Of a stretch of DNA of 64,000 nucleotides, positions 2,797-58,720 are shown piece by piece. The translations under genes were made by a program, and so were the position numbers. The stretch spans positions 3,305,745-3,369,744 of the forward strand of contig OZ022242.1 in NCBI GenBank assembly GCA_963978895.1, read 5' to 3'. Below the pieces are notes generated by a model. That model was not told the DNA's origin. It saw only the letters and a program-made list of their open reading frames with translations, and made no database searches. Within the stretch, counting starts at the first letter, position 1. Every line of letters begins with the position of its first letter. The stretch comes from Erpobdella octoculata (lineage: Eukaryota > Annelida > Clitellata > Hirudinida > Erpobdellidae).

Positions 2797-3503
2797 TTCG
2801 GCAAAACTCAACCAACTCTACTGACTCTGGAAATATAAGTTTACCATCAATCGCATTCATACCACGTCGCTTGGAAGTCCTCAGTAATTACAGCAAAGAT
2901 GGGAATCAAGTGAGTACTGAAGAAATATTCGTAAGAAGCGCTAAAGCGGCTGTTGAGGCGACGACGACACTGACCATCACGGCGTCGGAAGCTCTGCTCG
3001 AAGAGGAGAAAGTAGTGACGCGCGAGTTTTGCAGCAAGTGCCCTGACAGCATGTGGGAGGCTTGTCGGTATCGCTACCTGGTTCAGTTCATCATTTACAT
3101 GGTCATACCGCTCATCATCATCACCGGGTTTTACGTCTTCATGGCTAGAGCTCTCTTTGCCAGCGGCCAGTACCTCCAGCAGCCCGGAGGCTCGCTGAGG
3201 CAGAACAGCAAAGAGAAGCAGAGCCGCGCCAGTGACGCAAAGAAGAACGGTCGCGAAACGTCTCAGTATGGCGATTTCCAGAGACCGATACTAGGAGATG
3301 AGAGCGATAAATTGGAGACCGACAGAACAAAGAATAGCAAATGGTCCGATGACAAACAAAGATCTGAAATTCAGCACGCGAGCAGAGCTGAAAAAGACAT
3401 AACGTCGCAGTCGTCGGAGCGGAGGAGCGAAAAGCCGAGAAGTGAACGATCCAGTAGAGAACGAGTCACCACTCTGAGGATCAACGACCAAATGGCTAAA
3501 CAG
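2797..3503 (+). CDS. Peptide GPCR exon: ECL2, TM5, long ICL3 (bombesin/CCHamide/GGNG receptor-like)
   Basis: Internal exon of a class A peptide receptor. A pyrimidine-rich acceptor ending in ctgcag at 2796 precedes it and a donor CAG|GTGAGT at 3504 follows. The exon supplies two bases of a split codon, then 235 full codons with no stop. The translation starts in an Asn-rich segment with likely N-glycosylation sites (NST twice, NIS, NYS), as expected for an enlarged extracellular loop 2. Cysteines that could form the conserved loop disulphide are in EFCSKC. TM5 lies at about 3075-3146 (QFIIYMVIPLIIITGFYVFMA, with the conserved TM5 proline). About 110 charged Ser/Arg/Lys-rich residues of third intracellular loop follow, ending in DQMAKQ. 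That joins in phase 0 to IEARKKVAK of the exon at 50562, a join typical of bombesin and CCHamide receptors. The ligand is unknown. TM1-TM4 lie outside the window. The GPCR call is firm, the subfamily moderate. Confidence 0.85.
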
Positions 3504-5700
3504 GTGAGTGAACTTTAACCTTAATTAGCTTATTTTACTTATGTCTGTGCGCAGTACATCATTTGTATGGGGGCACTGAGCCTAATAGACCCTCATCCTG
3601 TTGGTCTTGCCGTATATGGTGACTAGATCATTCACGGAATTTGCCAGTCAACGAATTGAAAAAATATTTATAATCACTCTTGTAAAAGAGTTAATCTGGT
3701 TTTTCATATGCTGTTTTATCGGGAACGAGCTTAACATAATTTTTAGGCAGCGACCAAACTGGAGTTCGAACCATGCCGTCGGGTCACAAGGGTTGGTGTC
3801 ACCCAGTGCGATCCGCACAACCCCTCGCCCTGTTATGCCACTGGAACAATATAGAAAAGCAGACATACAAACCATTAGACAGACAAACAAACGAGCGAAC
3901 AAGTAAGCAAGCGAATGAGCAAACTCCAAAGCATAATTACATGAAAAGATGAAGACAACATCAGAAGGAAAATCACATGAAAAGATTTCCCGATGGCGAT
4001 TCGGGCTGGAAAACAAAGACTACGGACTCATGCGGGGAGCAATAACATTGCTTATATCTGGAACATAAAACGTCATAATAGTATTTCTGGCGATAATAAA
4101 GAGTATGTAGATCATATATAATTCTGTATTTCTGCCTAATATTCTACACATAAAACTTCTTTACACTTGTTTTTACAGTAAATCATTTGTAATAAGTTAT
4201 TATATATTTTAAACCTCACTCAAAATCCGGAAACATAAATCAATAACCATGTTTTAACGCCGACTTCAGTTGGTTATGTCGGTGCAAAAAAAAATCTGAA
4301 TTATTCAGTGTCTTCGGCAAAAGCGCCTCTGGGGCGTGGGGTCTATTTACAAGTGATAATCGAATTCCGTACGTTACTCATCCTGCTAATTTAGTGTTTT
4401 ACGCTTAACCATAGTTACTATGGTTAAGCGTAAAGCACTAAATTAGCCGATAATGCCATTGTAGCATTGACCACCGCAAATACTAATGCTACAGATTTAA
4501 ATTACGTATTACGACTTCATACTATTCTGCCTGGGACGATATTGTCACATGTGAAATACCATGGATACATCAAAACGTCTATCCCGTTACCATTGTCATC
4601 ACTACTAATACCAGTATCATCGTCGTCACAACCACCGTTATCATCTTCCTTAAGTCCTTTCCAGTTATATTACCTCGTTACTTTATTCTATTCGATCGAT
4701 CTACTACACCAGTGTGGTCGTCGGCGCGTGACGAAACTTAATTGTTTTCCTCGGTGCATGAAAACGTTCCTTGGCGGAAGATAATAGATAATAATATACA
4801 AATTAACCGGAATCAACTGAAAATAAAATTTTTTAAATGAAAAATTTATTAAAATTATTACAACTTGTTTTAAAACAACTGCTGAATGTTTTACATTTTT
4901 TTAACAGTACCGGAGCTATGGTGCGGGTAATCTCCCAAAACATTAGTGAGGCTCTTCACTGGCAGGTTACAGGACTATGGTTTAGCTGCTATTTCTCAAA
5001 ACTAATCGATGACCAAAAAGGGTAACAGTATTTTCCTTGAAGCCCGGGGTTCCCGACCCGGGGGTTGGGGGTGTGGTAACCATGGAACTGTTTTTTAATA
5101 AAATTCATCAGACAAGCGGCAGAAACAGGCACACAAGCAAACAAGCAAAGTGCGATACGCACGAATTCACGACAAACAACCAGCCATAAAATAAGTATAC
5201 CGGTATTTAACATACTTCATACGCATGCTGCGCGTCCCATACAGATATGTACCTCGTACCATCCGCGTATGTAAATTCTTGGATAATTTATTTATCTCTT
5301 TTCCGCTATGTCATTATCATTATTTATTGCTAGCACGCTTTTTCCCCGCTAAAACCAGCCAGCCTCATCTGGTAACCGTAGAAGCGATGACGTTTTTCGG
5401 TGTAGTTTATTGGATATCGTGTTCACGCATTTCATGTACGCTCCTTTTGAGTGAAGAGATGCCATCATCTTGCTTTCTACTGTCCAACTAGAGTTTGATC
5501 GGCAGCAAGCACCTGTTTTTTTTTAAATCTAGGCTACATAATTAGAAAAAAATTAAACATCTTAAGAAATAATTTTTTTTTAAAACAACGTTTTTCTTGC
5601 GGCCTAAAAAGTATAAAAAGAATAAAATAATATTCCTATGAGCCTGGCAGAATTACTGAATAACTTGGTCAAATTATGGTAACACATTTTATAACAGTTT
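3504..5700. other. Start of the giant intron; no gene seen
   Basis: AT-rich, with two patches of higher GC (about 3750-3850 and 5035-5090) that may be old transposon remnants but show no recognisable ends. Open frames here have no family features. The one structured item is the palindrome at 4385-4447, listed separately. Confidence 0.5.
4385..4447. repeat. Near-perfect 31-bp-arm palindrome (hairpin)
   Basis: Two 31-base arms (left begins GCTAATTTAG, right ends CTAAATTAGC) are separated by a single base. They differ at one position, which would be a G-U wobble in RNA. The arms meet at CATAGT-t-ACTATG. No terminator or miRNA context can be assigned. It could be a foldback element relic or a replication-generated palindrome. 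Confidence 0.85.
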
Positions 5701-7228: not shown

Positions 7229-7522
7229 TATATACGCATATATAAGTATATGATTATATATATATATAAATGTTCAAGATGATCGTTTCAATCGAACTTT
7301 ATTGTTACAATATGGACGCGGTCCGACTGATCATGTTGTGACAAATAACACCATGTTCAACTCTAACAAATAAACGATCTCTTCCGATAACATGGGTGGC
7401 AACTCGACGACAAGTTTACCGTAGACTCTCATACCTCGGATCTACCACTTACAAAACTCAGTTGTTGTATCTCTCGTGGTGACAGACCCGTCACCCTCTC
7501 TACAACTGAAAACGAGTCTGAT

Positions 7523-8038
7523 GTGGACGATCAAGTCTTCGTGATGGCTCTGGACGGCACAGAATTGTCCCTCGTTTCTTGCGTTTCTGTCGGCCGTGAC
7601 AGCGGATCTCATTCGCTGAGCGCTGACAATCAAAGGCGCCACACTTCAGTTCATTCTTTTGGATCGCGCGGTCGGCCTGATTCCGGAAGAAAAGTCGATC
7701 TTCATGAAATTGCCAGCTGTGCTTCAGCTCGGGACGCTACACATGGAGATGGCCAAACACTGTTTGGCGATAACGTCGTTTTCCCCACCAGCTTCATCTC
7801 GTCTTCAGTCGATGGTGCTGCAGGCAACTTCGAAGAAAGTAATCTTCTATCGTTGTCTCATGGCTTGCTCGGCGATGAAGATAATACTTTGACCTGCGGG
7901 CAACTTGACGCTTGCGTCCCAGTTGACCTTCATGACGTTCAGCCTGGATGCGAGGATGGTGCGGGGCTCAGTGGTTCGAATACTACTTTTGAGCATCTCA
8001 CTTACAATGATAATATTAATAAGCGGCGACGGCGCTAA
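7523..8038 (+). pseudogene. Possible C-terminal part of a second Penelope-like element
   Basis: A 171-codon open frame that ends FEHLTYNDNINKRRRR-stop. The intact Penelope-like ORFs nearby end [20 protein letters not shown], so the last ~17 residues share the F-x-H-L...N-I...RRRR pattern. I see no clear alignment over the rest. Position supports the link: a degenerate hammerhead (8513-8559) and a recognisable Penelope N-terminus (8623-8709) follow on the same strand, in the order (C-terminus, UTR, ribozyme, N-terminus) seen in the - strand array at 9333-10300. Other frames here are also open, so the identity is tentative. Confidence 0.4.
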
Positions 8039-8512: not shown

Positions 8513-8559
8513 AGGGTTCTAAAGATGGCTTTTATAGCTGAAACTGGCCAGTTAACCCT
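8513..8559 (+). ncRNA. Degenerate hammerhead ribozyme (Penelope-like remnant)
   Basis: Helix I is AGGGTT pairing with AACCCT (6 bp). The core reads CTAAAGA where CTGANGA is required, so the essential G is changed to A. Helix II is GGCT/AGCT (one G-U). GAAA is present, helix III is CTG-GC-CAG and the cleavage-site residues are TT. The helix III sequence is identical to that of the intact ribozymes on the other strand. The core change predicts no activity. This is a relic, 63 bases upstream of the Penelope N-terminal fragment. Confidence 0.55.
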
Positions 8560-8622
8560 GACCGTTTTATTACTCATCATTTTTAACCAATAAATTCTTC
8601 AATATATGTCTCGTCGTTTCAA

Positions 8623-8708
8623 ATGGATGAAAAGGGCTTTAAAAACTTGCTAAGAAAGATGACTAACGTTAAGTGGTCAATTGTGTTTAATAGAACCTGT
8701 TTAAAAGA

Positions 8709-8709
<1 letters not shown>
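8623..8709 (+). pseudogene. Penelope-like ORF, N-terminal fragment (diverged family)
   Basis: Starting at ATG 8623, the frame gives [20 protein letters not shown] then CLKE. The intact ORFs of the adjacent array have [20 protein letters not shown] then CLRE at the same place, just after their ATG. The frame then runs directly into an (AT)n microsatellite, which truncates it. This shows a second, older Penelope-like family on the + strand with the same 5' layout (hammerhead, then ORF start). Confidence 0.65.
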
Positions 8710-9332
<623 letters not shown>

Positions 9333-9335
<3 letters not shown>

Positions 9336-9465
9336 GAGTAATATACTTTGGCAAAATCCCCTCTCGTAAACACACTCCGTTAAAAACAAACGACCACTTT
9401 GCATTAATGACTTTTTTAATAAACTGTTCAAAATATTTAATTTTACGACGTAAACTAGAGTCCAT
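9333..9465 (-). pseudogene. Penelope-like ORF, N-terminal stub (downstream partial copy)
   Basis: Identical to the first ~44 codons of the full ORFs (start at 9465, exactly 3534 bases below the 12999 start). It is cut by a short (AT)n run at about 9306-9332. It forms the downstream pseudo-LTR of the array, together with the hammerhead at 9501-9542. Confidence 0.85.
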
Positions 9466-9500
9466 TTTAAAAATTTATATAATACAAATAATAATAATTA

Positions 9501-9542
9501 GGACTGACTGGCCAGTTTCGACTACAGTCATCTTCAGAGTCC
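9501..9542 (-). ncRNA. Hammerhead ribozyme (array junction 1)
   Basis: On the - strand: helix I GGACT...AGTCC (5 bp), core CTGAAGA (fits CTGANGA), T then helix II GACT-GT-AGTC (4 bp), GAAA, helix III CTG-GC-CAG (3 bp), then TC at the cleavage site. All invariant core residues are present in 42 nt. Hammerheads in pseudo-LTRs are established for Penelope-like elements. Activity is inferred. The short helices II and III suggest weak activity as a monomer. Confidence 0.85.
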
Positions 9543-10023
9543 GTAACCTAAAATGTCGTATTACGTAAACAGCTAAAGAATATATAGTAAACATCAACAT
9601 AGAAATAGTGTTGTGCCTATATTAAATAAATATTTAAATTAAAGTATTTAAAACCAGAGTATGACGATATAAGTAAATTACGAGAGCTTATAAAATTGAT
9701 AAATGAAAAGAAGTATAAAGATAAATTAAATAATAATTATTATTAATAAAATAAAATAAATAAATATAAATAGATAGGACGAATTGAATGAAGTCTATAA
9801 TACTAATAATAGAAATTAAAACACTTAAAATTATTAGAAGATTAATGAAATTAAACTATAGGTATCTAGTGACAGTATATTGAAATAAAAAAGTATGAAA
9901 TAAAATAATAAAAGGTGAAAAATTTAAATAAAACCATGTGATGAATTAAAATAAAAGTAAACTTATATGAAAAATTAAAATAAACGCATGACTGTGCAAA
10001 TGGGATACATATAGATGATTCAA
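9543..10023 (-). other. Penelope-like untranslated region, unit 1
   Basis: Very AT-rich spacer between the stop codon at 10024 and the hammerhead. It is the same as 13077-13557 and 16611-17091. No further ORF was seen. Confidence 0.8.
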
Positions 10024-12999
10024 TTAACGCCGACGTCTTGTAGTTATATTTGAAGACTCAAACAAATGTTGAAATGACACCGCTGGAGCCTGAGCCTCAG
10101 GTGGAGGCTCAGGTGGAGGTTCAGGTGGAGGCTCAGGTGGAGGTTCAGGTGGAGGTTCAGGTGGAGGCTCAGATGGAGGCTCAGGTGGAGGCTCATGTAG
10201 GATAGGCGTGGGTAGTTGCACGATGGGAGCTGGTTGAAGAGATGAGTTGGAAAGGTAGTTAACCTCATCACTTAGTAGACCACGGGGAGATATACCGAGA
10301 CGATCGCCAACATCTATGACAGGAGTCAAATAAACCGATCCACGGGAAGTGTTTACCTCATTAGTTTTGTCAGGCTGTACCAAACCAGAAGCAACGGCCG
10401 AATAAGGGGATCGACTAGTACCGTGACCACAGATTAATAAAGGACCAGAGCTCGTAGCTTTGTTACCACCCAGCATAGCGCCTACCGTCTGAGACCGAAG
10501 CACATTATCATCAGCAAAATCATTAAAGTCAAGATTGAACAGTCGTAAAGTTCTATCAAAGTGTGTATCCTGAGTATTTATTGCTGGTCGATATTCTTGT
10601 ATAAGTAAAGCCTCTGCTATTTTTAATCGACGTGGATCTGAAACACGGTAGAGAATGGTTGTATCATTATCAAGAATCTCGCGAGTAAGAGACGTTTGAT
10701 GAAGAGATCGAAAATGAGATTTAATGTTGCCACCTTGCACGTGCATCGTCAACCGTCGAGCCAATGTCGTACGAGTATGCCCGATATACGACTGATGTAG
10801 ACCGTCATGTTTATTGCATTTGAATTCGTAAACAACATTAGTCTCTTTCAATGTACCTGATTTAAAGAGATTATTTCGCATTATCATTTGGTGGGCTGTT
10901 TTTGATTTATAATAAATTGTAAATAGAAGTCGTTGAGTATTTGGCGAAACAACTCTAACATTAGTGTTAATAATGTCACGAATTATTTTCTCTTCAACTC
11001 TATAAGCACTGTGCATCTGAGATCTGTAATATAACCGAATGACTTTGCTTTCTTTTTCATTTTTTAAGACAGGTAATGGTCGTTTACAGTTATCAAATTT
11101 AGCCTTGACAAATTTATTAATGGCATCATCAATTTCAGAGTTGGCAAAATTATTATTGATAAGTGTTGTCCGAATTTTATTTACTTCAACATCGAATCCA
11201 CACCAGTCCTCAGCCACTCGATAAGCTCGATGTAAATATCCATAAATTACACTTCTTCTGTAACGATCTGGACAGTAACTTGCACCGCTTAGAGTTTCTC
11301 CAGTAGAAGAAGGCTTGGAATAAACAGATAATGCAACACGATCTTCAAATTGTTCAATTAATGTGTCAAGAAATGGTAGTTGTTTATCCAAGTTGCTCAA
11401 CTCATATGTAAATTGTAAAACGGAATTCTTTTGAAGACAATTCCGTAAACTGTGCATCTGAGTAATATCCTCACATAAAACGAAGATATCATCAACGTAA
11501 CGTCCATATATCAATGGTCGAACAGAGTCATCAACAAACACTCGGCTCTCAACAAGAGCCATATGAAATTCCGCAAAGGTGGGGCCTAAGGATGAGCCCA
11601 TGGCCACGCCATCGACCTGTAAGTATAATTTTCCCTTATAATCTGTAAATGGTACGTCAGTTGTGCAGATTCTGAGAAGATCTAACATTATTTTCTCAGG
11701 AACCGGAAAGGGAGGTAGAGTAGCGTGATGATACAAGCATTCCAGTATAAATTGAATAGTTTCACCAACCGGAACATTAGTGAAGAGGCTCACGACGTCA
11801 ATAGAAGCAATAACACCTTTATACGACGATGAACCCCGTATCAAATCAACAAAATCAGATGTCGATGATAAAGAGTATTTATTTGGGCAATATTGTCTAA
11901 TCATATTATTAATAGACTTCGCAAGTTGATATATGGGTGTGGGGCACTGTGAGATGATTGGTCTCAGTGGTTGGCCTTCTTTATGTATTTTGACATTTCC
12001 ATATATATACCCCGGAGCATATTCACCAACTATATGTGTTAACTGGTTATCTGGAAGAAGGTAAGGATTAGCAAGAATTATCAAGGAATTGGCTTTCTTT
12101 TTTATGTCATCAATAGGATTACAACTTATGTGCTTGAACTTCATTTCGTCTGATAAGATGTTATCGATTTTTCTAAAATAAACATCCCGATCTAGGATGA
12201 CGTATGAGCTGCATTTATCTGCTCTACGTACAATAATGTGATCATTGTTCTTTAATGATCGAGAAGCCATAATCAATCGCTTAGGTAGATATTGTTGACG
12301 ATCGCCTCTATGTACATATCCCTCGCGATGTAGTAAAGGCTTCAATTTTGTAGTGCAATTTATTTGACCCAATCTGGTTAGCGAAATAATATTTTGATAT
12401 AAAACTTCAAGTTCAATTCGTTTAACCAACTTGCTATAAGTAGGTTTAACATGGCATCTGTATCCCAGTTGTAAAAAATCATGTTCATCACTGTTCAAAG
12501 TATAAGTCGACAAGTTAATATAACGTGGAAAATCTTTCTTTAAAAGTATTTCAGAACCATATAAGGCTGATAACTTTTTAATTATAGTAGTCTTTTTCTT
12601 TTTATCAAAATTCTCTGCAAATCGCATTATGGTCGTTTCAATTTGATGACGCATAGCGTTAGATAATGAGGAGCAAAATTCTTGAAACTCAACATTGTAC
12701 TTTGCATCATCATGCGAAAACTTAATTCCAGACGATTTCCATTCACGATATAAGATAGAATATTCCTTCGTAGGTATTTTATTATTTCTCAATAGAAATT
12801 CGTCAACAAAAGGAAAAGTACCAGATAACTCATCTGTTTGTAATGCCACTTTGGAGCGAAATTTATTATGAGTAATATACTTTGGCAAAATCCCCTCTCG
12901 TAAACACACTCCGTTAAAAACAAACGACCACTTTGCATTAATGACTTTTTTAATAAACTGTTCAAAATATTTAATTTTACGACGTAAACTAGAGTCCAT
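10024..12999 (-). CDS. Penelope-like reverse transcriptase / GIY-YIG endonuclease, copy 1
   Basis: A 991-residue open frame starting at ATG ([10 protein letters not shown]). It copies element RNA into DNA and nicks the target. Reverse transcriptase motifs run through about residues 250-560: SSYVILDRDVYF (264-275), GNVKIHKEGQPLRPIIS (334-350), SIDVVSLFTNVPVG (399-412), VDGVAMGSSLGPTFAE (462-477), the active-site YVDD (501-504) and LPFLDTLIE (541-549). The GIY-YIG nuclease follows (about 720-810): [21 protein letters not shown], then [14 protein letters not shown] carrying the expected Glu and Asn. This spelling resembles the Neptune group of Penelope-like elements, a family-level inference. 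An unusual C-terminal (EPPP)n tract, encoded by a GAGGTGGAGGTTC-type minisatellite, lies at about residues 930-965. The frame is intact; residue 479 is His where copy 2 has Tyr. Confidence 0.92.
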   Translation of the reverse strand: MDSSLRRKIKYFEQFIKKVINAKWSFVFNGVCLREGILPKYITHNKFRSKVALQTDELSGTFPFVDEFLLRNNKIPTKEYSILYREWKSSGIKFSHDDAKYNVEFQEFCSSLSNAMRHQIETTIMRFAENFDKKKKTTIIKKLSALYGSEILLKKDFPRYINLSTYTLNSDEHDFLQLGYRCHVKPTYSKLVKRIELEVLYQNIISLTRLGQINCTTKLKPLLHREGYVHRGDRQQYLPKRLIMASRSLKNNDHIIVRRADKCSSYVILDRDVYFRKIDNILSDEMKFKHISCNPIDDIKKKANSLIILANPYLLPDNQLTHIVGEYAPGYIYGNVKIHKEGQPLRPIISQCPTPIYQLAKSINNMIRQYCPNKYSLSSTSDFVDLIRGSSSYKGVIASIDVVSLFTNVPVGETIQFILECLYHHATLPPFPVPEKIMLDLLRICTTDVPFTDYKGKLYLQVDGVAMGSSLGPTFAEFHMALVESRVFVDDSVRPLIYGRYVDDIFVLCEDITQMHSLRNCLQKNSVLQFTYELSNLDKQLPFLDTLIEQFEDRVALSVYSKPSSTGETLSGASYCPDRYRRSVIYGYLHRAYRVAEDWCGFDVEVNKIRTTLINNNFANSEIDDAINKFVKAKFDNCKRPLPVLKNEKESKVIRLYYRSQMHSAYRVEEKIIRDIINTNVRVVSPNTQRLLFTIYYKSKTAHQMIMRNNLFKSGTLKETNVVYEFKCNKHDGLHQSYIGHTRTTLARRLTMHVQGGNIKSHFRSLHQTSLTREILDNDTTILYRVSDPRRLKIAEALLIQEYRPAINTQDTHFDRTLRLFNLDFNDFADDNVLRSQTVGAMLGGNKATSSGPLLICGHGTSRSPYSAVASGLVQPDKTNEVNTSRGSVYLTPVIDVGDRLGISPRGLLSDEVNYLSNSSLQPAPIVQLPTPILHEPPPEPPSEPPPEPPPEPPPEPPPEPPPEPPPEAQAPAVSFQHLFESSNITTRRRR

Positions 13000-13034
13000 T
13001 TTAAAAATTTATATAATACAAATAATAATAATTA

Positions 13035-13076
13035 GGACTGACTGGCCAGTTTCGACTACAGTCATCTTCAGAGTCC
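13035..13076 (-). ncRNA. Hammerhead ribozyme (array junction 2)
   Basis: Identical to the motif at 9501-9542. It lies 36 bases upstream of the copy 1 start codon, so it would form the 5' end of a self-cleaved unit RNA or release tandem transcripts into monomers. Confidence 0.85.
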
Positions 13077-13557
13077 GTAACCTAAAATGTCGTATTACGT
13101 AAACAGCTAAAGAATATATAGTAAACATCAACATAGAAATAGTGTTGTGCCTATATTAAATAAATATTTAAATTAAAGTATTTAAAACCAGAGTATGACG
13201 ATATAAGTAAATTACGAGAGCTTATAAAATTGATAAATGAAAAGAAGTATAAAGATAAATTAAATAATAATTATTATTAATAAAATAAAATAAATAAATA
13301 TAAATAGATAGGACGAATTGAATGAAGTCTATAATACTAATAATAGAAATTAAAACACTTAAAATTATTAGAAGATTAATGAAATTAAACTATAGGTATC
13401 TAGTGACAGTATATTGAAATAAAAAAGTATGAAATAAAATAATAAAAGGTGAAAAATTTAAATAAAACCATGTGATGAATTAAAATAAAAGTAAACTTAT
13501 ATGAAAAATTAAAATAAACGCATGACTGTGCAAATGGGATACATATAGATGATTCAA

Positions 13558-16533
13558 TTAACGCCGACGTCTTGTAGTTATATTTGAAGACTCAAACAAA
13601 TGTTGAAATGACACCGCTGGAGCCTGAGCCTCAGGTGGAGGCTCAGGTGGAGGTTCAGGTGGAGGCTCAGGTGGAGGTTCAGGTGGAGGTTCAGGTGGAG
13701 GCTCAGATGGAGGCTCAGGTGGAGGCTCATGTAGGATAGGCGTGGGTAGTTGCACGATGGGAGCTGGTTGAAGAGATGAGTTGGAAAGGTAGTTAACCTC
13801 ATCACTTAGTAGACCACGGGGAGATATACCGAGACGATCGCCAACATCTATGACAGGAGTCAAATAAACCGATCCACGGGAAGTGTTTACCTCATTAGTT
13901 TTGTCAGGCTGTACCAAACCAGAAGCAACGGCCGAATAAGGGGATCGACTAGTACCGTGACCACAGATTAATAAAGGACCAGAGCTCGTAGCTTTGTTAC
14001 CACCCAGCATAGCGCCTACCGTCTGAGACCGAAGCACATTATCATCAGCAAAATCATTAAAGTCAAGATTGAACAGTCGTAAAGTTCTATCAAAGTGTGT
14101 ATCCTGAGTATTTATTGCTGGTCGATATTCTTGTATAAGTAAAGCCTCTGCTATTTTTAATCGACGTGGATCTGAAACACGGTAGAGAATGGTTGTATCA
14201 TTATCAAGAATCTCGCGAGTAAGAGACGTTTGATGAAGAGATCGAAAATGAGATTTAATGTTGCCACCTTGCACGTGCATCGTCAACCGTCGAGCCAATG
14301 TCGTACGAGTATGCCCGATATACGACTGATGTAGACCGTCATGTTTATTGCATTTGAATTCGTAAACAACATTAGTCTCTTTCAATGTACCTGATTTAAA
14401 GAGATTATTTCGCATTATCATTTGGTGGGCTGTTTTTGATTTATAATAAATTGTAAATAGAAGTCGTTGAGTATTTGGCGAAACAACTCTAACATTAGTG
14501 TTAATAATGTCACGAATTATTTTCTCTTCAACTCTATAAGCACTGTGCATCTGAGATCTGTAATATAACCGAATGACCTTGCTTTCTTTTTCATTTTTTA
14601 AGACAGGTAATGGTCGTTTACAGTTATCAAATTTAGCCTTGACAAATTTATTAATGGCATCATCAATTTCAGAGTTGGCAAAATTATTATTGATAAGTGT
14701 TGTCCGAATTTTATTTACTTCAACATCGAATCCACACCAGTCCTCAGCCACTCGATAAGCTCGATGTAAATATCCATAAATTACACTTCTTCTGTAACGA
14801 TCTGGACAGTAACTTGCACCGCTTAGAGTTTCTCCAGTAGAAGAAGGCTTGGAATAAACAGATAATGCAACACGATCTTCAAATTGTTCAATTAATGTGT
14901 CAAGAAATGGTAGTTGTTTATCCAAGTTGCTCAACTCATATGTAAATTGTAAAACGGAATTCTTTTGAAGACAATTCCGTAAACTGTGCATCTGAGTAAT
15001 ATCCTCACATAAAACGAAGATATCATCAACGTAACGTCCATATATCAATGGTCGAACAGAGTCATCAACAAACACTCGGCTCTCAACAAGAGCCATATAA
15101 AATTCCGCAAAGGTGGGGCCTAAGGATGAGCCCATGGCCACGCCATCGACCTGTAAGTATAATTTTCCCTTATAATCTGTAAATGGTACGTCAGTTGTGC
15201 AGATTCTGAGAAGATCTAACATTATTTTCTCAGGAACCGGAAAGGGAGGTAGAGTAGCGTGATGATACAAGCATTCCAGTATAAATTGAATAGTTTCACC
15301 AACCGGAACATTAGTGAAGAGGCTCACGACGTCAATAGAAGCAATAACACCTTTATACGACGATGAACCCCGTATCAAATCAACAAAATCAGATGTCGAT
15401 GATAAAGAGTATTTATTTGGGCAATATTGTCTAATCATATTATTAATAGACTTCGCAAGTTGATATATGGGTGTGGGGCACTGTGAGATGATTGGTCTCA
15501 GTGGTTGGCCTTCTTTATGTATTTTGACATTTCCATATATATACCCCGGAGCATATTCACCAACTATATGTGTTAACTGGTTATCTGGAAGAAGGTAAGG
15601 ATTAGCAAGAATTATCAAGGAATTGGCTTTCTTTTTTATGTCATCAATAGGATTACAACTTATGTGCTTGAACTTCATTTCGTCTGATAAGATGTTATCG
15701 ATTTTTCTAAAATAAACATCCCGATCTAGGATGACGTATGAGCTGCATTTATCTGCTCTACGTACAATAATGTGATCATTGTTCTTTAATGATCGAGAAG
15801 CCATAATCAATCGCTTAGGTAGATATTGTTGACGATCGCCTCTATGTACATATCCCTCGCGATGTAGTAAAGGCTTCAATTTTGTAGTGCAATTTATTTG
15901 ACCCAATCTGGTTAGCGAAATAATATTTTGATATAAAACTTCAAGTTCAATTCGTTTAACCAACTTGCTATAAGTAGGTTTAACATGGCATCTGTATCCC
16001 AGTTGTAAAAAATCATGTTCATCACTGTTCAAAGTATAAGTCGACAAGTTAATATAACGTGGAAAATCTTTCTTTAAAAGTATTTCAGAACCATATAAGG
16101 CTGATAACTTTTTAATTATAGTAGTCTTTTTCTTTTTATCAAAATTCTCTGCAAATCGCATTATGGTCGTTTCAATTTGATGACGCATAGCGTTAGATAA
16201 TGAGGAGCAAAATTCTTGAAACTCAACATTGTACTTTGCATCATCATGCGAAAACTTAATTCCAGACGATTTCCATTCACGATATAAGATAGAATATTCC
16301 TTCGTAGGTATTTTATTATTTCTCAATAGAAATTCGTCAACAAAAGGAAAAGTACCAGATAACTCATCTGTTTGTAATGCCACTTTGGAGCGAAATTTAT
16401 TATGAGTAATATACTTTGGCAAAATCCCCTCTCGTAAACACACTCCGTTAAAAACAAACGACCACTTTGCATTAATGACTTTTTTAATAAACTGTTCAAA
16501 ATATTTAATTTTACGACGTAAACTAGAGTCCAT
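13558..16533 (-). CDS. Penelope-like reverse transcriptase / GIY-YIG endonuclease, copy 2
   Basis: 991 codons, identical in length and domain order to copy 1 at 10024-12999 (YVDD at 501-504, GIY-YIG near 720-810, Pro/Glu tail). It differs by Tyr at residue 479, in the RT segment TFAEFYMALVE, and by a synonymous base at 14580. It is flanked on both sides by the same 558-bp untranslated segment with a hammerhead. Both full copies are uninterrupted, so either could encode an active protein. No promoter could be assigned. Confidence 0.92.
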   Translation of the reverse strand: MDSSLRRKIKYFEQFIKKVINAKWSFVFNGVCLREGILPKYITHNKFRSKVALQTDELSGTFPFVDEFLLRNNKIPTKEYSILYREWKSSGIKFSHDDAKYNVEFQEFCSSLSNAMRHQIETTIMRFAENFDKKKKTTIIKKLSALYGSEILLKKDFPRYINLSTYTLNSDEHDFLQLGYRCHVKPTYSKLVKRIELEVLYQNIISLTRLGQINCTTKLKPLLHREGYVHRGDRQQYLPKRLIMASRSLKNNDHIIVRRADKCSSYVILDRDVYFRKIDNILSDEMKFKHISCNPIDDIKKKANSLIILANPYLLPDNQLTHIVGEYAPGYIYGNVKIHKEGQPLRPIISQCPTPIYQLAKSINNMIRQYCPNKYSLSSTSDFVDLIRGSSSYKGVIASIDVVSLFTNVPVGETIQFILECLYHHATLPPFPVPEKIMLDLLRICTTDVPFTDYKGKLYLQVDGVAMGSSLGPTFAEFYMALVESRVFVDDSVRPLIYGRYVDDIFVLCEDITQMHSLRNCLQKNSVLQFTYELSNLDKQLPFLDTLIEQFEDRVALSVYSKPSSTGETLSGASYCPDRYRRSVIYGYLHRAYRVAEDWCGFDVEVNKIRTTLINNNFANSEIDDAINKFVKAKFDNCKRPLPVLKNEKESKVIRLYYRSQMHSAYRVEEKIIRDIINTNVRVVSPNTQRLLFTIYYKSKTAHQMIMRNNLFKSGTLKETNVVYEFKCNKHDGLHQSYIGHTRTTLARRLTMHVQGGNIKSHFRSLHQTSLTREILDNDTTILYRVSDPRRLKIAEALLIQEYRPAINTQDTHFDRTLRLFNLDFNDFADDNVLRSQTVGAMLGGNKATSSGPLLICGHGTSRSPYSAVASGLVQPDKTNEVNTSRGSVYLTPVIDVGDRLGISPRGLLSDEVNYLSNSSLQPAPIVQLPTPILHEPPPEPPSEPPPEPPPEPPPEPPPEPPPEPPPEAQAPAVSFQHLFESSNITTRRRR

Positions 16534-16568
16534 TTTAAAAATTTATATAATACAAATAATAATAATTA

Positions 16569-16610
16569 GGACTGACTGGCCAGTTTCGACTACAGTCATC
16601 TTCAGAGTCC
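16569..16610 (-). ncRNA. Hammerhead ribozyme (array junction 3)
   Basis: Third identical copy of the 42-nt hammerhead, upstream of the copy 2 start. The three motifs are spaced at exactly 3534 bases. Confidence 0.85.
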
Positions 16611-17091
16611 GTAACCTAAAATGTCGTATTACGTAAACAGCTAAAGAATATATAGTAAACATCAACATAGAAATAGTGTTGTGCCTATATTAAATAAATA
16701 TTTAAATTAAAGTATTTAAAACCAGAGTATGACGATATAAGTAAATTACGAGAGCTTATAAAATTGATAAATGAAAAGAAGTATAAAGATAAATTAAATA
16801 ATAATTATTATTAATAAAATAAAATAAATAAATATAAATAGATAGGACGAATTGAATGAAGTCTATAATACTAATAATAGAAATTAAAACACTTAAAATT
16901 ATTAGAAGATTAATGAAATTAAACTATAGGTATCTAGTGACAGTATATTGAAATAAAAAAGTATGAAATAAAATAATAAAAGGTGAAAAATTTAAATAAA
17001 ACCATGTGATGAATTAAAATAAAAGTAAACTTATATGAAAAATTAAAATAAACGCATGACTGTGCAAATGGGATACATATAGATGATTCAA

Positions 17092-18229
17092 TTAACGCCG
17101 ACGTCTTGTAGTTATATTTGAAGACTCAAACAAATGTTGAAATGACACCGCTGGAGCCTGAGCCTCAGGTGGAGGCTCAGGTGGAGGTTCAGGTGGAGGC
17201 TCAGGTGGAGGTTCAGGTGGAGGTTCAGGTGGAGGCTCAGATGGAGGCTCAGGTGGAGGCTCATGTAGGATAGGCGTGGGTAGTTGCACGATGGGAGCTG
17301 GTTGAAGAGATGAGTTGGAAAGGTAGTTAACCTCATCACTTAGTAGACCACGGGGAGATATACCGAGACGATCGCCAACATCTATGACAGGAGTCAAATA
17401 AACCGATCCACGGGAAGTGTTTACCTCATTAGTTTTGTCAGGCTGTACCAAACCAGAAGCAACGGCCGAATAAGGGGATCGACTAGTACCGTGACCACAG
17501 ATTAATAAAGGACCAGAGCTCGTAGCTTTGTTACCACCCAGCATAGCGCCTACCGTCTGAGACCGAAGCACATTATCATCAGCAAAATCATTAAAGTCAA
17601 GATTGAACAGTCGTAAAGTTCTATCAAAGTGTGTATCCTGAGTATTTATTGCTGGTCGATATTCTTGTATAAGTAAAGCCTCTGCTATTTTTAATCGACG
17701 TGGATCTGAAACACGGTAGAGAATGGTTGTATCATTATCAAGAATCTCGCGAGTAAGAGACGTTTGATGAAGAGATCGAAAATGAGATTTAATGTTGCCA
17801 CCTTGCACGTGCATCGTCAACCGTCGAGCCAATGTCGTACGAGTATGCCCGATATACGACTGATGTAGACCGTCATGTTTATTGCATTTGAATTCGTAAA
17901 CAACATTAGTCTCTTTTAATGTACCTGATTTAAAGAGATTATTTCGCATTATCATTTGGTGGGCTGTTTTTGATTTATAATAAATTGTAAATAGAAGTCG
18001 TTGAGTATTTGGCGAAACAACTCTAACATTAGTGTTAATAATGTCACGAATTATTTTCTCTTCAACTCTATAAGCACTGTGCATCTGAGATCTGTAATAT
18101 AACCGAATGACCTTGCTTTCTTTTTCATTTTTTAAGACAGGTAATGGTCGTTTACAGTTATCAAATTTAGCCTTGACAAATTTATTAATGGCATCATCAA
18201 TTTCAGAGTTGGCAAAATTATTATTGATA
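17092..18229 (-). pseudogene. Penelope-like ORF, 5'-truncated copy 3 (GIY-YIG half)
   Basis: Keeps about the last 378 codons (from [12 protein letters not shown] to the RRRR stop), including the whole GIY-YIG region and Pro/Glu tail, but lacks the reverse transcriptase. At 18229 the sequence passes straight into (AT)n, which keeps the frame open artificially with an Ile/Tyr run. It shares the copy 2 base at the 14580-equivalent site. It is the 5' edge of the array. Confidence 0.88.
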
Positions 18230-18381
18230 TATATATATATATTTATATATATATATATATATATATATAAATATATATATTTATATATATATATGTATAT
18301 ATATATATTTATATTTATATATATATGCTTGTTTATATATATACATATATGTATAAATACATATATATAAACATATATATA

Positions 18382-18447
<66 letters not shown>

Positions 18448-18486
18448 TTTATGTATATATATATATACGTATATGTATATATACAA

Positions 18487-18545
<59 letters not shown>
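18230..18545. repeat. Imperfect (AT)n tract
   Basis: About 315 bp of TA dinucleotides with interspersed G and C and TTTA interruptions. It separates the Penelope array from the first SR-protein unit. Confidence 0.9.
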
Positions 18546-18551
<6 letters not shown>

Positions 18552-18667
18552 AGTTTTCCTTTTCCTCTACCTGAAGATCACAAGACCAAAAAGATATATT
18601 AAATCATTATTTTATCTATCAGCCAAATTTAACTAATTATATCAATTTGTAACTAACTAATTATAGC

Positions 18668-20218
18668 ATGCCTTCAAGAGTTTATATCGGAAGACTGTCG
18701 AAACGTGCAACGGAAAGAGATATTGAGAAGTTTTTTAAAGGTTACGGACGTATCACCGACGTGATGCTGAAGAACGGTTACGGCTTTGTCGATATCGAAG
18801 ATGAGAGAGATGCCGATGATGCCGTTTATGATCTCAACACTAGAGAAATGTTGGGCGAGCACGTCCTAGTCCAACATGCCAAAGGACCTCACGAAAAGGC
18901 CTCACATAGGTCCAGCAGGTCATCCAAGCCAATTCGGTTGAACAAGTATGGCGCACCTCAACGTACAGGCTACAGGGTTATTGTTGAAAACTTATCTTCG
19001 CGTGTCAGCTGGCAAGACCTGAAGGACTACATGAGGGACGCCGGAGAAGTAACATTTGCCGATGCGCACAAGGAGAGAAGAAACGAAGGAGTTGTTGAAT
19101 TTGCTTCTAGAAGAGATTTGAAAAGAGCCTTGGATAAGCTAGACGGGATGGAAATCAATGGCCGAAGAATTAAACTAATCGATGATTCCAAAGACGTTAG
19201 TCGTTCGAGGAGTAGAAGCAGAAGCAGAAGCAGAAGTAGAAGTTCAAAAAGTAGAAGTAGAAGCTCAAGACGAAGAAGAAGTTCAGGAAGAGGTAGAAAT
19301 TCAAGAAGAAGTAGAAGTAGAAGTTCGAGAACAAGTAGAAGTGGAAGCTCAAGAGAAAAGAGTAGAGACTCAAGAAAAAGAAGTAAAAAAGAAGCTCAAA
19401 AAAATGTTAAAGACGAAAGTGAAAGTAGAAGAAAACAGGAGCAGAAAAGAAGCTACAGCAGAGATAGAAGCAAGAGTGTCAGTAGAGACGGAAAAAATGA
19501 AAATAGTAAATTTGATAAAGATGTAGAAAAAAGAGTTAGAAGTGAAAGTGTAAAGAGCAAAAAGGCAGACAGTGATGGAGAGAGAAGTGACAGAAGAAGA
19601 GTACATGAAAGCCACAGCAAAGAGAGAAGCAGGAATGTCAGTGAAGACGAAAAAAATGAAAATTGTAAATATGTTAAAGATAGAAGAAATGAATCTGTGG
19701 ACAGAAATTTAAGAAGTGAAAGTGTAAAAAGCCGAAAGGCAGACTGTGACGGGGAAAGAGGTGAATACCGTAAGACCGAAATGAAATATGAAGAAACTAA
19801 AAACAAAAGTGCTTCTAGACATGAACGTCGAGAAGACAGTTTCGAAAGAAAGGACCCGAAAAATGCGAAAATAAACATTAGATCTGTTGGAAAAAACAGA
19901 AGTGAGAGTAGAAGTGAGAGTAGAAGTAATAGTAGAAGTAAGAGTAGAAGTAGAAATGATAGTATGAGTGATAGAAAAAGTAAGAGTAGAAGTAAGAGTA
20001 GAAGTAGAAGTGATAGTATGTGTGATAGAAGAAGTAAGAGTAGAAGTGATAGTAGAAGTAGAAAAAGGAGTAAAAACAGGACCAGCAAACGAAAGAGAAG
20101 CGATAGTTCCGAAGATGATAAGTCAACGTGCAAGATCCAAAACTGCGGTAGCTTTTCAAAAGTTAAAACGCCAAAATATTATGGTTATAGTACTAGCGAA
20201 AGTGAATCAGATAGTTGA
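18668..20218 (+). CDS. SR splicing factor, SRSF4/5/6 (B52)-like, copy 1
   Basis: 516 residues. The role known for the family is exonic-enhancer binding and splice-site selection in the nucleus. RRM1 spans about residues 3-74, with RNP2 VYIGRL (5-10) and RNP1 NGYGFVDI (36-43). A Ser/Arg linker leads to the second, pseudo-RRM (about 101-172), which carries the hallmark SWQDLKD (114-120). From about residue 178 there is a long RS domain. SRSF4/6-type genes normally have several introns; this ORF has none, which suggests a retrocopy. It differs from copies 2 and 3 at otherwise conserved RRM positions (His65 and His75 for Arg, Asn57 for Asp, SK for PN at 11-12), so it may be relaxing. It ends SESESDS-stop, with an AATAAA at 20407. 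Nested in the GPCR intron on the same strand. Confidence 0.85.
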
Positions 20219-20651: not shown

Positions 20652-22462
20652 TTGGATGAATTCCAACCAGTCACCGCTGATGAGATAATAAAATTGATAA
20701 TGGCTGCTCCGAACAAATATTGTTCATTGGATCCATCCCCTACTTGGATTATCAAAAAATGTTGTGTCCACATTGCATTTTTTGTCGCTTTGATGTGCAC
20801 TCGATCTTTACAAGAAGGATATTTTCCTGCTAGTCAGAAGTCAGCACTTGTCACTCCGCTTATTAAAAAAGACGGACTTGACCCTGCTGACATGAAGAGC
20901 TATCGACCAGTCTCTAACCTGACCTTTATGTCAAAACTGGTAGAGCGGATTGTTGCTAAACGATTGAATGTACATCTAGGTCTTTCTGGCAGTCTCCCAT
21001 CAAACCAATCTGCGTATCGCCGGTTTTACTCTACAGAATCTGCACTATTCAAAGTAGTGAATGATCTGGCAGTTGCTACTGATAGTGGTAAGGTGTCGCT
21101 ACTGAGTCTCTTAGATCTGAGTGCCGCATTTGATACTGTTGACCATGGAATCCTTATTGAGAGACTTGAAAAAACTCATGGCATCTGTGGAGTTGTCTTA
21201 AAATGGATTATTGACGGTTAAACTTACATCTAAACGTTTTTTTTATTATAAAATTACAAACATGCCGCACTAAAACAGAAAGTGAATAATTTAAAACAAA
21301 TTTATATCAAATATATCCTCAAACAAAATAATTGTTGGTGTTTTTACCAATGCTTTTATTAACTCGTCGTCTCTGTTTCTCTGTCTGTCTGTTTCTCTGT
21401 CTGTTTCAAATCTTATTATTATTATCTTATTATTTAACTAACCGCACGCAACGGGTTAGTGTGGGTGGGAACTTGTCATTGTCCGTTTCGCTTAGTAGTG
21501 GAGTACCCCAGGGATCAGTCTTGGGCCCACTACTCTTTCTATTGTACACCACTGATTTACTTGAAATTATTCATCGTTCTGGACTCGAGGGACACTGCTA
21601 TGCCGACGACACCCAAACATATGTTCACTGCTCTGTTGATGATGCGGAGAATGTTCACCTTCGCTTATTGCCCTGCATAGAAAACATTGAACAGTGGATG
21701 GCTTCTAATCGTCTAAAACTGAATGGCGATAAGACTGAATTAATCTGGATAGGTGCAAGATCAAATTTGCAACAGAGTAAAGCAAAAGCCTTGTTAGTTG
21801 CTGGGGCTTTGGTTGCCCCCACAGAAGTTGTTCGAAACCTAGGTGTTTATGTCGATTCTGAGCTTTCCATGAAAGATCATATATCTAAACTGTCAAAAAC
21901 CTGTTTTTTCCAACTACGACAACTTAGAACCATACGAAGGTCTCTGACAAGTGAAGCAACACGTCTCCTGCTGCATTCGTTTGTTGTAAGTAGACTTGAC
22001 TACTGCAACTCTTTATTTACAGGCTTACCTCTTAGTGTTGTTGGAAAGATTCAACGTATTCAAAATGCAGCTGCTCGTCTTTTTGGTGGACTAAAGAAAC
22101 ATGATCATGTGACTGCAATAATGAAAACTGAACTCCGGTGGCTGCGTATCTCTGAGCGAATTACTTTCAAAATTGGGACTTTAGTCTACAAGGCGCTCCA
22201 TGGCGAAGCCCCCTCATATTTGCAAGAGCTGTGTGTCACTGTGTCTAATAACAATTCTTACTTATCTCGTCACAGATCTGCTAGTCGTGGTGATCTAGTT
22301 GTTCCCATAACTCGAACAAAAACTTACGGCAGTCGAGCCTTCAGTATAGCATGACCGGCAACATGGAACATGTTGCCTGCCAGCATCCGAGAAGCCACTA
22401 CATTGAGTTTATTCAAAGCCGAGCTAAAGACATTTCTGTTTGCGAAATCGTATCCAAATTGA
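20652..22462 (+). pseudogene. Reverse transcriptase ORF of the CR1/L2-like LINE (broken)
   Basis: The first part reads VTPLIKKDGLDPADMKSYRP then VSNLTFMSKLVERIV, NQSAYRRFYSTESAL and LSLLDLSAAFDTVDH. At about 21213-21420 some 200 bp of unrelated sequence breaks the frame inside the segment that should read LKWI..YLTNRTQRV. The second part has SSGVPQGSVLGPLLFLLYT, the active-site YADD and the usual thumb/C-terminal motifs (NLGVYVDSELSM, LDYCNSLFTGLP). A TGA at 22352 replaces a codon in what should read SIAGPATWN. The frame resumes to a stop at 22460. Clade by motif only. Confidence 0.8.
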
Positions 22463-28567: not shown

Positions 28568-30124
28568 ATGCCTTCAAGAGTTTATATCGGAAGATTACCG
28601 AACCGTGCAACGGAAAGAGATATTGAGAAGTTTTTTAAAGGTTACGGACGTATCACCGACGTGATGCTGAAGAACGGTTACGGCTTTGTCGATATCGAAG
28701 ATGAGAGAGATGCCGATGATGCCGTTTATGATCTCGACAATAGAGAAATGTTGGGCGAGCGCGTCCTAGTCCAACATGCCAAAGGACCTCGCGAAAAGGC
28801 CTCACATAGGTCCAGCAGGTCATCCAAGCCAATTTGGTTGAACAAGTATGGCGCACCTCAACGTACAGGCTACAGGGTTATTGTTGAAAACTTATCTTCG
28901 CGTGTCAGCTGGCAAGACCTGAAGGACTACATGAGGGACGCCGGAGAAGTAACATTTGCCGATGCGCATAAGGAGAGAAGAAACGAAGGAGTTGTTGAAT
29001 TTGCTTCTAGAAGAGATTTGAAAAGAGCCTTGGATAAGCTAGACGGGATGGAAATCAATGGCCGAAGAATTAAACTAATCAATGATTCTAAAGACGTTAG
29101 TCGTTCGAGGAGTAGAAGCAGAAGCAGAAGTAGAAGTTCAAAAAGTAGAAGTAGAAGCTCAAGACGAAGAAGAAGTTCAGGAAGATGTAGAAATTCAAGA
29201 AGAAGTAGAAGTAGAAGTTCGAGAACAAGTAGAAGTGGAAGCTCAAGAGAAAAGAGTAGAGACTCAAGAAAAAGAAGTAAAAAAGAAGCTCAAAAAAATG
29301 TCAAAGACGAAAGTGAAAGTAGAAGAAAACAGGAGCAGAAAAGAAGCTACAGCAGAGATAGAAGCAAGAGTGTCAGTAGAGACGGAAAAAATGAAATTAG
29401 TAAGTTTGATAAAGATGTAGAAAAAAGAGTTAGAAGTGAAAGTGTAAAGAGCAAAAAGGAAGACAGTGATGGAGAGAGAAGTGACAGAAAACGAGTACAT
29501 GAAAGCCACAGCAAAGAGAGAAGCAGGAATGTCAGTGAAGACGAAAAAAATGAAAATTGTAAATATGTTAAAGATAGAAGAAATGAATCTGTTGACAGAA
29601 ATGTAAGAAGTGAAAGTGTTAAAAGCCGAGAGGCAGACTGTGACGGGGAGAGAGGTGAATACCGTAAGACCGAAATGAAATATGAAGAAACTAAAAACAA
29701 AAGTGCTTCTAGACATGAACGTCGAGAAGACAGTTTCGATAGAAAGGACCCGAAAAATGCGAAAATAAACTCTAGATCTGTTGGAAAAAACAGAAGTGAG
29801 AGTAGAAGTAAGAGTAGAAGTGAGAGTAGAAGTAAGAGTAGAAGTAAGAGTAGAAGTAGAAATGATAGTATGAGTGATAGAAAAAGTAAGAGTAGAAGTA
29901 AGAGTAGAAGTAGAAGTGATAGTATGTGTGATAGAAGAAGTAAGAGTAGAAGTGATAGTAGAAGTAGAAAAAGGAGTAAAAACAGGACCAGCAAACGAAA
30001 GAGAAGCGATAGTTCCGAAGATGATAAGTCAACGTGCAAGATCCAAAACTGCGGTAGCTTTTCAAAAGTTAAAACGCCAAAATATTATAGTTATAGTTCT
30101 AGCGAAAGTGAATCAGATAGTTGA
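28568..30124 (+). CDS. SR splicing factor, SRSF4/5/6 (B52)-like, copy 2
   Basis: 518 residues, intronless, with the same architecture as copy 1: RRM1, pseudo-RRM with SWQDLKD, long RS domain. RRM1 keeps the family residues [14 protein letters not shown]. Position 90 is Trp as in copy 3, and residue 172 is Asn instead of Asp. The RS domain is rebuilt from AGTAGAAG-type hexa/nonanucleotide repeats and differs in repeat number from the other copies. It ends SESESDS-stop like copy 1. The bases after the stop still match the coding sequence at the end of copy 3, so the stop is derived. Poly(A) signal AATAAA at 30313. Same strand as the host GPCR gene. Confidence 0.85.
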
Positions 30125-33057: not shown

Positions 33058-34590
33058 ATGCCTTCAAGAGTTTATATCGGAAGACTGCCGAACCGTGCAA
33101 CGGAAAGAGATATTGAGAAGTTTTTTAAAGGTTACGGACGTATCACCGACGTGATGCTGAAGAACGGTTACGGCTTTGTCGATATCGAAGATGAGAGAGA
33201 TGCCGATGATGCCGTTTATGATCTCGACAATAAAGAAATGTTAGGCGAGCGCGTCCTAGTCCAACATGCCAAAGGACCTCGCGAAAAGGCCTCACATAGG
33301 TCCAGCAGGTCATCCAAGCCAATTTGGTTGAACAAGTATGGCGCACCTCAACGTACAGGCTACAGGGTTATTGTTGAAAACTTATCTTCGCGTGTCAGCT
33401 GGCAAGACCTGAAAGACTACATGAGGGACGCCGGAGAAGTAACGTTTGCCGATGCGCACAAGGAGAGAAGAAACGAAGGAGTTGTTGAATTTGCTTCTAA
33501 AAGAGATTTGAAAAGAGCCTTGGATAAGCTAGACGGGATGGAAATCAATGGCCGAAGAATTAAACTAATCGATGATTCCAAAGACGTTAGTCGTTCGAGG
33601 AGTAGAAGCAGAAGCAGAAGCAGAAGTAGAAGTTCAAAAAGTAGAAGTAGAAGCTCAAGACGAAGAAGAAGTTCAGGAAGAGGTAGAAATTCAAGAAGAA
33701 ATAGAAGTAGAAGTTCGAGAACAAGTAGAAGTGGAAGTTCAAGAGAAAAAAGTAGAGACTCAAGAAAAAGAAGTACAAAAGAAGCTCAAAAAAATGTTAA
33801 AGACGAAAGTGAAAGTAGAAGTAAACAGGAGCAGAAAAGAAGCTACAGCAGAGATAGAAGCAAGAGTGTCAGTAGAGACGGAAAAAATGAAAATAGTAAA
33901 TTTGATAAAGATGTAGAAAAAAGAGTTAGAAGTGAAAGTGTAAAAAGCAAAAAGGCAGACAGTGATAGAGAGAGAAGTGAAAGAAGAAAAGTACAAGAAA
34001 GCCACAGCAGAGAAAATAGCAGGAATGTCAGTGAAGACGAAAAAAATGAAAATTGTAAATATGTTAAAGATAGAAGAAATGAATCTGTAGACAGAAATGT
34101 AAGAAGTGAAAGTGTAAAAAGCCGAGAGGCAGACTGTGACGGGGAGAGTGGTGAATACCGTAAGACCGAAATGAAATATGAAGAAACTAAAAACAAAAGT
34201 GCTTCTAGACACGAACGTCGAGAAGACAGTTTCGAAAGAGAGGATTTGAAAACTGCGAAAAGAAACAGTAGATCTGTTGAAAGAAGTAGAAGTAAGAGTA
34301 GAAGTAAGAGTAGAAGCAATAGTAGAAGTAGAAGTAAGAGTAGAAGTAGAAGTAAGAGTAGAAGTAGAAGTAAGAGTGAAAGTAGAAGTAAGAGTAGAAG
34401 TGATAGTATGAGTGATAGAAGAAGTAAGAGTAGAAGTAAGAGTAGAAGTGCTAATAGAAATAGAAAAAGCAGTAAAAACAGGACCAGCAAACGAAAGAGA
34501 AGCGATAGTTCCGAAGATGAGGAAAGAAACTGTAAAAAAAATAGAAGTTATAGCGGAGATGAATCAGACGGACGAGGCTCAAGACGCTGA
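33058..34590 (+). CDS. SR splicing factor, SRSF4/5/6 (B52)-like, copy 3
   Basis: 510 residues, intronless: RRM1 (RNP2 VYIGRL, RNP1 NGYGFVDI), pseudo-RRM with SWQDLKD and an expanded RS domain with many RSKSRSR repeats. Its C-terminus is different: [21 protein letters not shown]. Where copies 1 and 2 read GATAGTTGA (stop), this copy reads GACGGACGA and continues to SRR-stop, so it probably keeps the older ending. Its own 3' flank, with AATAAA at 34664, diverges from the other two. It has the fewest departures from family residues in RRM1 apart from a Lys at 59, so it is the best candidate for the functional or parental copy. Same strand, inside the GPCR intron. Confidence 0.85.

Positions 34591-57875: not shown

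Positions 57876-58720
<845 letters not shown>

Follow-up and report, generated by a model that had tools for sequence, protein, structure and literature searches.

A tandem Penelope-like element array in Erpobdella octoculata, with a (TA)n target and a hammerhead-like motif at each joint

A 64,000-nucleotide (nt) stretch of the Erpobdella octoculata genome (GCA_963978895.1, OZ022242.1:3,305,745-3,369,744, forward strand; hereafter the window) contains a tandem array of a Penelope-like element (PLE) with a hammerhead-like motif at every joint between its units. The array is a new member of an already known element type, the endonuclease-bearing (EN+) PLEs. Its structure, together with that of related insertions elsewhere in the assembly, makes it likely that this element targets (TA)n, that its reverse transcription starts at position 131 of the open reading frame (ORF+131), and that the template is an uncut multimer or a circle, not a linear unit cut by the ribozyme. 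The assembly is chromosome-scale, with 386 Mb in 94 contigs, the largest of those examined being 53 Mb.

The array lies on the minus strand and consists of a 3534-bp unit present in 2.517 copies, arranged head-to-tail without spacer at a period of exactly 3534 bp. Read 5' to 3', an ORF-truncated copy is followed by a joint, a full ORF, a second joint, a second full ORF, a third joint and a 131-nt tail (Table 1). The two full units are 2 substitutions apart, one of them silent (11044) and the other an H/Y change at codon 479 (11565); a single position separates the 5'-partial copy from the middle unit. Each of these three substitutions is private to one unit. The downstream ORF (12999-10024) is the one that has exchanged Y479 for H, at a position where at least 90% of 62 aligned sequences carry Y. 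The array appears to be a recent insertion because only 2 differences in 3534 positions and 1 in 1827 were found. An error of copy number in the assembly might be suspected of such nearly identical units; it is highly improbable, since the three private substitutions tell the units apart and one-plus-partial structures recur at other loci. An original prediction, made from the window alone, had described a near-identical tandem PLE array with two intact 991-residue ORFs that differ at a couple of bases, each encoding a reverse transcriptase (RT) and a GIY-YIG domain, and had supposed that it formed in one recent event. This description was borne out, the single event as a probable one. Of the span that it gave, 9333 to 18229, the end is correct, whereas the repeat begins at 9335; it also overlooked an extra uridine in the hammerhead-like core, the (TA)n target, the tail that ends at ORF+131 and a second PLE relic at ~7.4-8.7 kb.

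The Pfam scan of the window protein returned RVT_1 (E 1.2e-7) and no GIY-YIG match; of seven relatives scanned with Pfam one, P0106, matched GIY-YIG (E 2e-5). Across the 62 aligned sequences the RT aspartates D401, D503 and D504 are invariant, as are Y724, Y738, G740, R749, H753, E796 and N808, which we take to be the GIY-YIG catalytic set. An AlphaFold2 model of the ORF protein (pLDDT 80, pTM 0.76) has telomerase as its nearest fold in the PDB (E 1e-9), with a low TM-score of 0.27 by query length and 0.38 by target. The element thus combines the features of an EN+ PLE, namely a telomerase-related RT, GIY-YIG after the RT, tandem or partial-tandem units with a pseudo-long terminal repeat (pLTR), and an internal-initiation tail. 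The protein relatives considered were 120 of 582 listed, of which 16 and 61 were used in two alignments. NCBIfam and PDB sequence searches of the protein added little. No DNA of PLE relatives was found in the viral contig or genome contig collections searched (four pattern matches in viral contigs were judged to be chance on inspection), and no PLE protein relatives were found among phages.

Manual grouping of fifty matches of the unit in the assembly gave 32 insertion loci. The 3' end falls on the same base, ORF+131, in 31 of the 32, with the junction ...ACTCA followed by TATATA. At least 8 nt of alternating A/T form the 3' flank in all 32 loci, or in 30 under a stricter test; the 5' flank passed the strict alternating-AT test in 16, and many of the others are partly AT. 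One full unit plus a truncated piece occurs at 12 loci besides the window, each with its own 5' end, and two full units at only one of the 32.

Insertion length was analysed for 30 loci, leaving aside C7b (other 3' end) and C7c (rearranged). The 30 insertions range from 2628 to 8895 nt, 13 of them exceed one unit, and no two are equal to the base. The truncation hazard per kb, in five bins from 2600 to 9000 nt, was 0.72, 1.07, 0.97, 0.90 and 0.41, with no step at the unit boundary. None of the 12 insertions that reach 3702 nt has its 5' end within 3 nt of the second predicted cut (3705), which argues that these long insertions do not derive from RNAs ended by the ribozyme at that site. Self-cleavage into linear unit-length pieces does not account for the origin of the array: the start of reverse transcription lies 171 nt past the last cut, and the array spans three uncut or re-ligated ribozymes.

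Short inserts point to what cut RNA may do instead. Three matches were found when sequence from directly past the cut was sought, as a pattern, next to (TA)n; they cover unit positions 3364-3534, 3364-3534 and 3369-3534 (171, 171 and 166 positions), the first with 2 extra bases. Two of them start at q3364 (q, position in the unit), the predicted cut, and run to ORF+131, as expected if cut RNA had been reverse-transcribed. In one of these two, L054, a few bases stand between ...ACTCA and the 3' (TA)n. The hammerhead-like motif probably cuts in vivo; the predicted self-cleavage has gained indirect backing from these two inserts.

As predicted, a 42-nt motif occurs at every joint, and it is identical at all three: a 5-bp helix I, CUGAAGA, an extra U, helix II, GAA, ACUGGCCAGU, C17 and the helix I return, with ACUGGCCAGU forming helix III as a perfect 10-nt palindrome. 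The hammerhead core consensus is C3U4G5A6N7G8A9, G12A13A14, A15.1-U16.1 and H17. The motif agrees with it throughout and deviates by one extra U between A9 and helix II; the statement that every invariant core residue is present is accurate as to the residues and omits this insertion. A descriptor allowing one extra core nucleotide gave three matches in the window, all in the joints, and one match in 38.4 million Markov-shuffled strand-bases, an expectation of ~1.8e-4 per unit for both strands. A strict hammerhead descriptor gave none in the window, and Rfam, run at its gathering score, found no hammerhead there, nor did it at E<=10 in 9000-18700 and 9480-9560. For the monomer, the hammerhead fold has -5.6 kcal/mol against a minimum free energy (MFE) of -12.6, with a predicted probability of ~1e-6. 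In the dimer the MFE structure is a double hammerhead whose helix III is a 10-bp palindrome; folding of two strands, of two longer contexts and of a cis tandem joined by an artificial linker all gave it. Copies were aligned from 28 of the 32 loci (C7b, C7d, C8d and C11d omitted, two truncated copies in part), 42 copies in all, 3 of which do not span the motif. It is unchanged in 39 of 39 copies that do, in an alignment from which insertions relative to the window unit were removed, so that an insertion in the motif would not show; this identity alone says little, because the divergence of the copies from the unit is no more than about 1%.

A second PLE family is present in the window as a diverged relic on the plus strand at ~7.4-8.7 kb, whose ORF start drew 65 tblastn rows from 121 queries (best E 9.6e-6). 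The relic motif shares the palindromic helix III and the extra U with the array, shows paired changes in helices I and II, and has A in place of G5 in its core. Both sides have changed in 3 of 11 pairs, 22 of 22 cells are paired, and sliding the partners abolishes the pairing. In the two-strand fold of the relic, unlike that of the array motif, pairing continues through the cleavage position. These comparisons bear on whether the motif is an inert remnant that persists through descent alone. Its extra core U, the missing Rfam match and the unfavourable monomer fold would suit such a remnant, but the paired changes relative to the relic, the short inserts that begin at the predicted cut, and the precedent of an extra nucleotide at the same place in chrysanthemum chlorotic mottle viroid (CChMVd), where U is faster than A (PMC3705267), make it improbable.

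Several points weigh against the proposed reading of target, start site, template and cutting. The loci are biased to long copies because 32 of 606 first-look candidates were scored; the count of loci is a lower bound, and the set is long by selection. The last hazard bin holds two events only. An exponential length fit, its mean estimated from these same lengths, gave a Kolmogorov-Smirnov p of 0.93; it expects only 0.17 of 30 insertions as long as the window array. Three long insertions end inside the motif (q3328, q3356 and q3359; 36, 8 and 5 nt upstream of the cut), which looks like stalling of the RT on structure. The cut-site inserts are two of three matches in a single 11-nt window, with a chance of ~0.023, calculated by hand, if ends are uniform, and the first A of the L054 insert could belong to (TA)n. 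The counts of covariation between relic and array, which rest on two sequences only, were equalled by 70 of 500 shuffles. The dimerisation energy was dropped as evidence for a ribozyme, as 267 of 500 shuffles gain as much.

The units within each locus were compared with one another, and this comparison bears on which template was used. Nearest copies were counted for 13 truncated copies, with C5b (26 nt) omitted and three of 176-207 nt ending in ties; the single nearest copy is the adjacent full unit for 8 of the 10 with more than 300 nt compared, the exceptions being C10a and C4a. The same two are exceptional among 10 tandem loci, where in the other 8 no substitution between neighbours is common to another locus. 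Neighbour substitutions in these 10 loci include 8 private ones, in 6 loci, and two loci have none; C8b has an additional 2-nt gap difference between neighbours. C10a is the sister of the window array, and its two copies differ at q2459, q3215 and q3510. Four sites separate the C4a copies, and each of these is polymorphic elsewhere among the loci.

A template of uncut linear multimers, in which a read-through transcript of an existing array is copied with its ribozymes uncut, is plausible, if a little short of probable. The heterogeneity of C4a would be inherited from such a transcript, and the Penelope/Poseidon PLE of Anolis carolinensis (PAc) uses unprocessed RNA in vitro, where mutants of its hammerhead insert equally well (PMC11167929). 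Copying of this kind could, however, only keep or shorten arrays, yet a length above one unit was measured in 13 of the 30 insertions, while only a single locus of the 32 contains two full units; transcript ends should moreover pile up, and no two measured lengths coincide. A circular template, in which two hammerheads excise a 3534-nt unit that is ligated and copied from ORF+131 round 2.5 times, is a possibility that we hold more tentatively. Template 5' ends show no pile-up in lengths of up to 8.9 kb, and 8 of 10 tandem loci lack shared neighbour substitutions, as if their units were identical at insertion. All window units carry the alleles expected of a C10a cut-to-cut unit at the three sites named. 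Retrozyme circles have been reported, and tandem cDNA from circles proposed (PMC7229834). The four polymorphic differences of C4a are, however, what a linear heterogeneous template would give, and C10a is a single case, read on an assumed direction of descent; its truncated copy also has a q3215 allele that was found once elsewhere. Stepwise growth after a shorter insertion, by unequal crossing-over or gene conversion, would also produce near-identical units, but it is unlikely, leaving unexplained on its own the 12 other one-plus-truncated loci with their separate 5' ends.

The reading that we prefer, with an uncut multimer or a circle as template, can be put as a sequence of steps. The PLE protein would open (TA)n DNA; the junctions show the target and the start point, and the enzymology is modelled on PAc. 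Reverse transcription would begin within the template RNA at ORF+131, immediately ahead of a UA matching the target, and move 5'-ward through the joint and further units with no fixed stop, leaving a tail, complete units and a copy truncated at its 5' end. The window array would be one such recent product of 8895 nt that passed three uncut or re-ligated ribozymes. The hammerhead, probably as a dimer, would cut some of the RNAs, which then begin 40 nt before the AUG. Used as templates, linear cut RNAs would give inserts of ~171 nt only, because 171 nt separate the last cut from the start of reverse transcription within the next ORF. Cutting might serve to trim the mRNA or to make circles.

A9, the extra U and G10.1 together form an AUG, 26 nt from the predicted cut, that opens a short upstream ORF (uORF); the uORF shares its frame with the main AUG, which lies 66 nt downstream, but its stop comes first. 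Six AUGs lie between the stop of the upstream ORF and the predicted cut, and none in the 40-nt leader that follows it. Hammerhead-encoded N-termini were sought among the relatives, where ET[GS] occurs in the first 25 residues of 8 of 120 against 0.56 expected; the count was made post hoc after P0001 and is a lead only, with P0035 and P0041 misplaced and P0001 (MAAAETG) alone resembling the uORF peptides. A more ambitious proposal, which we regard as rather doubtful, is that the hammerhead is a length-restoring device: dimeric cleavage at two joints would release a unit, a host ligase would close it, and arrays of any length, with identical units, would be rebuilt by rolling reverse transcription that begins at ORF+131 and targets (TA)n. 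The same cut would leave a linear mRNA with a 40-nt AUG-free leader, rid of the AUG made by the extra core U, so that one ribozyme would decide between message (cut and linear) and template (circle or uncut).

Table 1. Positions of the PLE array, the relic and associated features in the window
Feature	Position	Strand	Remark
PLE tandem array (5'-truncated copy, two full units, tail)	9335..18229	-	2.517 units of 3534 bp
ORF, 991 codons, RT (TERT-like fold) + C-terminal GIY-YIG	13558..16533	-	
ORF, 991 codons, residue 479 H (Y in other full ORF)	10024..12999	-	
ORF 3' part in 5'-truncated copy	17092..18229	-	
Tail, first 131 nt of ORF, ends ...ACTCA against (TA)n	9335..9465	-	
(AT)n, tail side	9302..9335	.	
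(AT)n-rich tract, truncated side	18227..18550	.	
Hammerhead-like motif, predicted cut 16574/16573	16569..16610	-	
Hammerhead-like motif, predicted cut 13040/13039	13035..13076	-	
Hammerhead-like motif, predicted cut 9506/9505	9501..9542	-	
Short uORF from AUG of core A9-U10-G10.1, 18 codons + stop	13009..13065	-	
Relic open frame, C-terminal-like end, similarity weak (best E 0.21)	7391..8038	+	
Relic hammerhead-like motif	8514..8558	+	
Relic ORF start/tail, ends at (AT)n tract 8709-8839	8599..8709	+	

Some loci have further features of their own. The 5' flanks of C1a and C2d resemble, by our own reading, the tail of another PLE. In three of the 32 loci (L028, L033 and L045) the insertion has inverted element pieces on its 5' side, at the end. 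In L044 (C7:30763600-30770700) two copies, identical over 1150 nt, are joined out of register from q3436 to q156, and q3436 is also the end of the inverted piece in L033. Window positions 58150-58187 and the 5' flanks of L025 and L030 resemble, again by our own reading, the start of an ORF (..LIPQFIRN) from yet another PLE family, ending at or close to (AT)n, with no significant match.

The window also holds an SR splicing-factor-like gene in three single-exon copies on the plus strand (18668-20218, 28568-30124 and 33058-34590), which are 92-94% identical over about 1.8-2.3 kb and have an (AT)n tract upstream of each; two RRM stretches were found in the first, the only copy scanned. A 1065-codon open frame at 43272-46469 (-) encodes a LINE-like RT and an endonuclease-like domain, and an RT in two pieces lies at 20652-22354 (+). 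A GGGAACGGGAAAGC-type minisatellite, partly an inverted repeat, is present beside (AT)n at 8709-9335 and 58187-58732, and one of its copies adjoins the PLE array.

A 2020 review calls the role of PLE hammerheads a mystery (PMC7761336), and the literature considered holds no account of how PLEs recover their length after 5' truncation. With many fresh copies, a fixed 3' base and a simple target, both become counting problems: the positions of 5' ends relative to the cut can be counted, and so can whether arrays inherit the heterogeneity of their donor. The first counts, all from genomic copies, argue against linear cut units as templates of long insertions and, more weakly, favour cutting in vivo.

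Among the closest known systems is PAc. Initiation there takes place at ORF+111-118 in an AT-rich target, the tail is explained, and uncut RNA is used (Frangieh 2024, PMC11167929). The PAc hammerhead was active only in the presence of protein. The tail of the present element has a single end point (+131), and the loci examined have (TA)n as their target. The PAc start codon lies 26 nt from the cut, the same distance as A9 here, with a counting origin that may differ (PMC11167929); the AUG in the present hammerhead opens a short uORF, not the main ORF. The location in the pLTR is shared with the minimal type I hammerheads of PLEs, which are reported without tertiary contacts and perhaps self-cleave as dimers (PMC7761336, PMC6155905). 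These usually lack helix III, whereas the helix III arms here form a perfect 10-nt palindrome and one extra U follows A9. An extra nucleotide between A9 and helix II is also found in the CChMVd (+) hammerhead, a viroid ribozyme in which it is an A; U in its place cuts 3-4 times faster in trans (PMC3705267). Animal retrozymes likewise carry type I hammerheads in tandem units, and that of the axolotl has a palindromic loop III and cleaves better as dimers (PMC7229834). They are non-coding, about 170-400 nt long and made as circles, in contrast to the 3534-bp coding unit described here, for which a circle is one candidate template. The Penelope elements of Adineta vaga (Pen1-Pen6) also form partial tandems with a pLTR, an optional tail and inverted pLTRs (PMC3846280), comparable to the inverted pieces at 3 of 32 loci here; the example given there differs in having a 31-bp tail and target site duplications.
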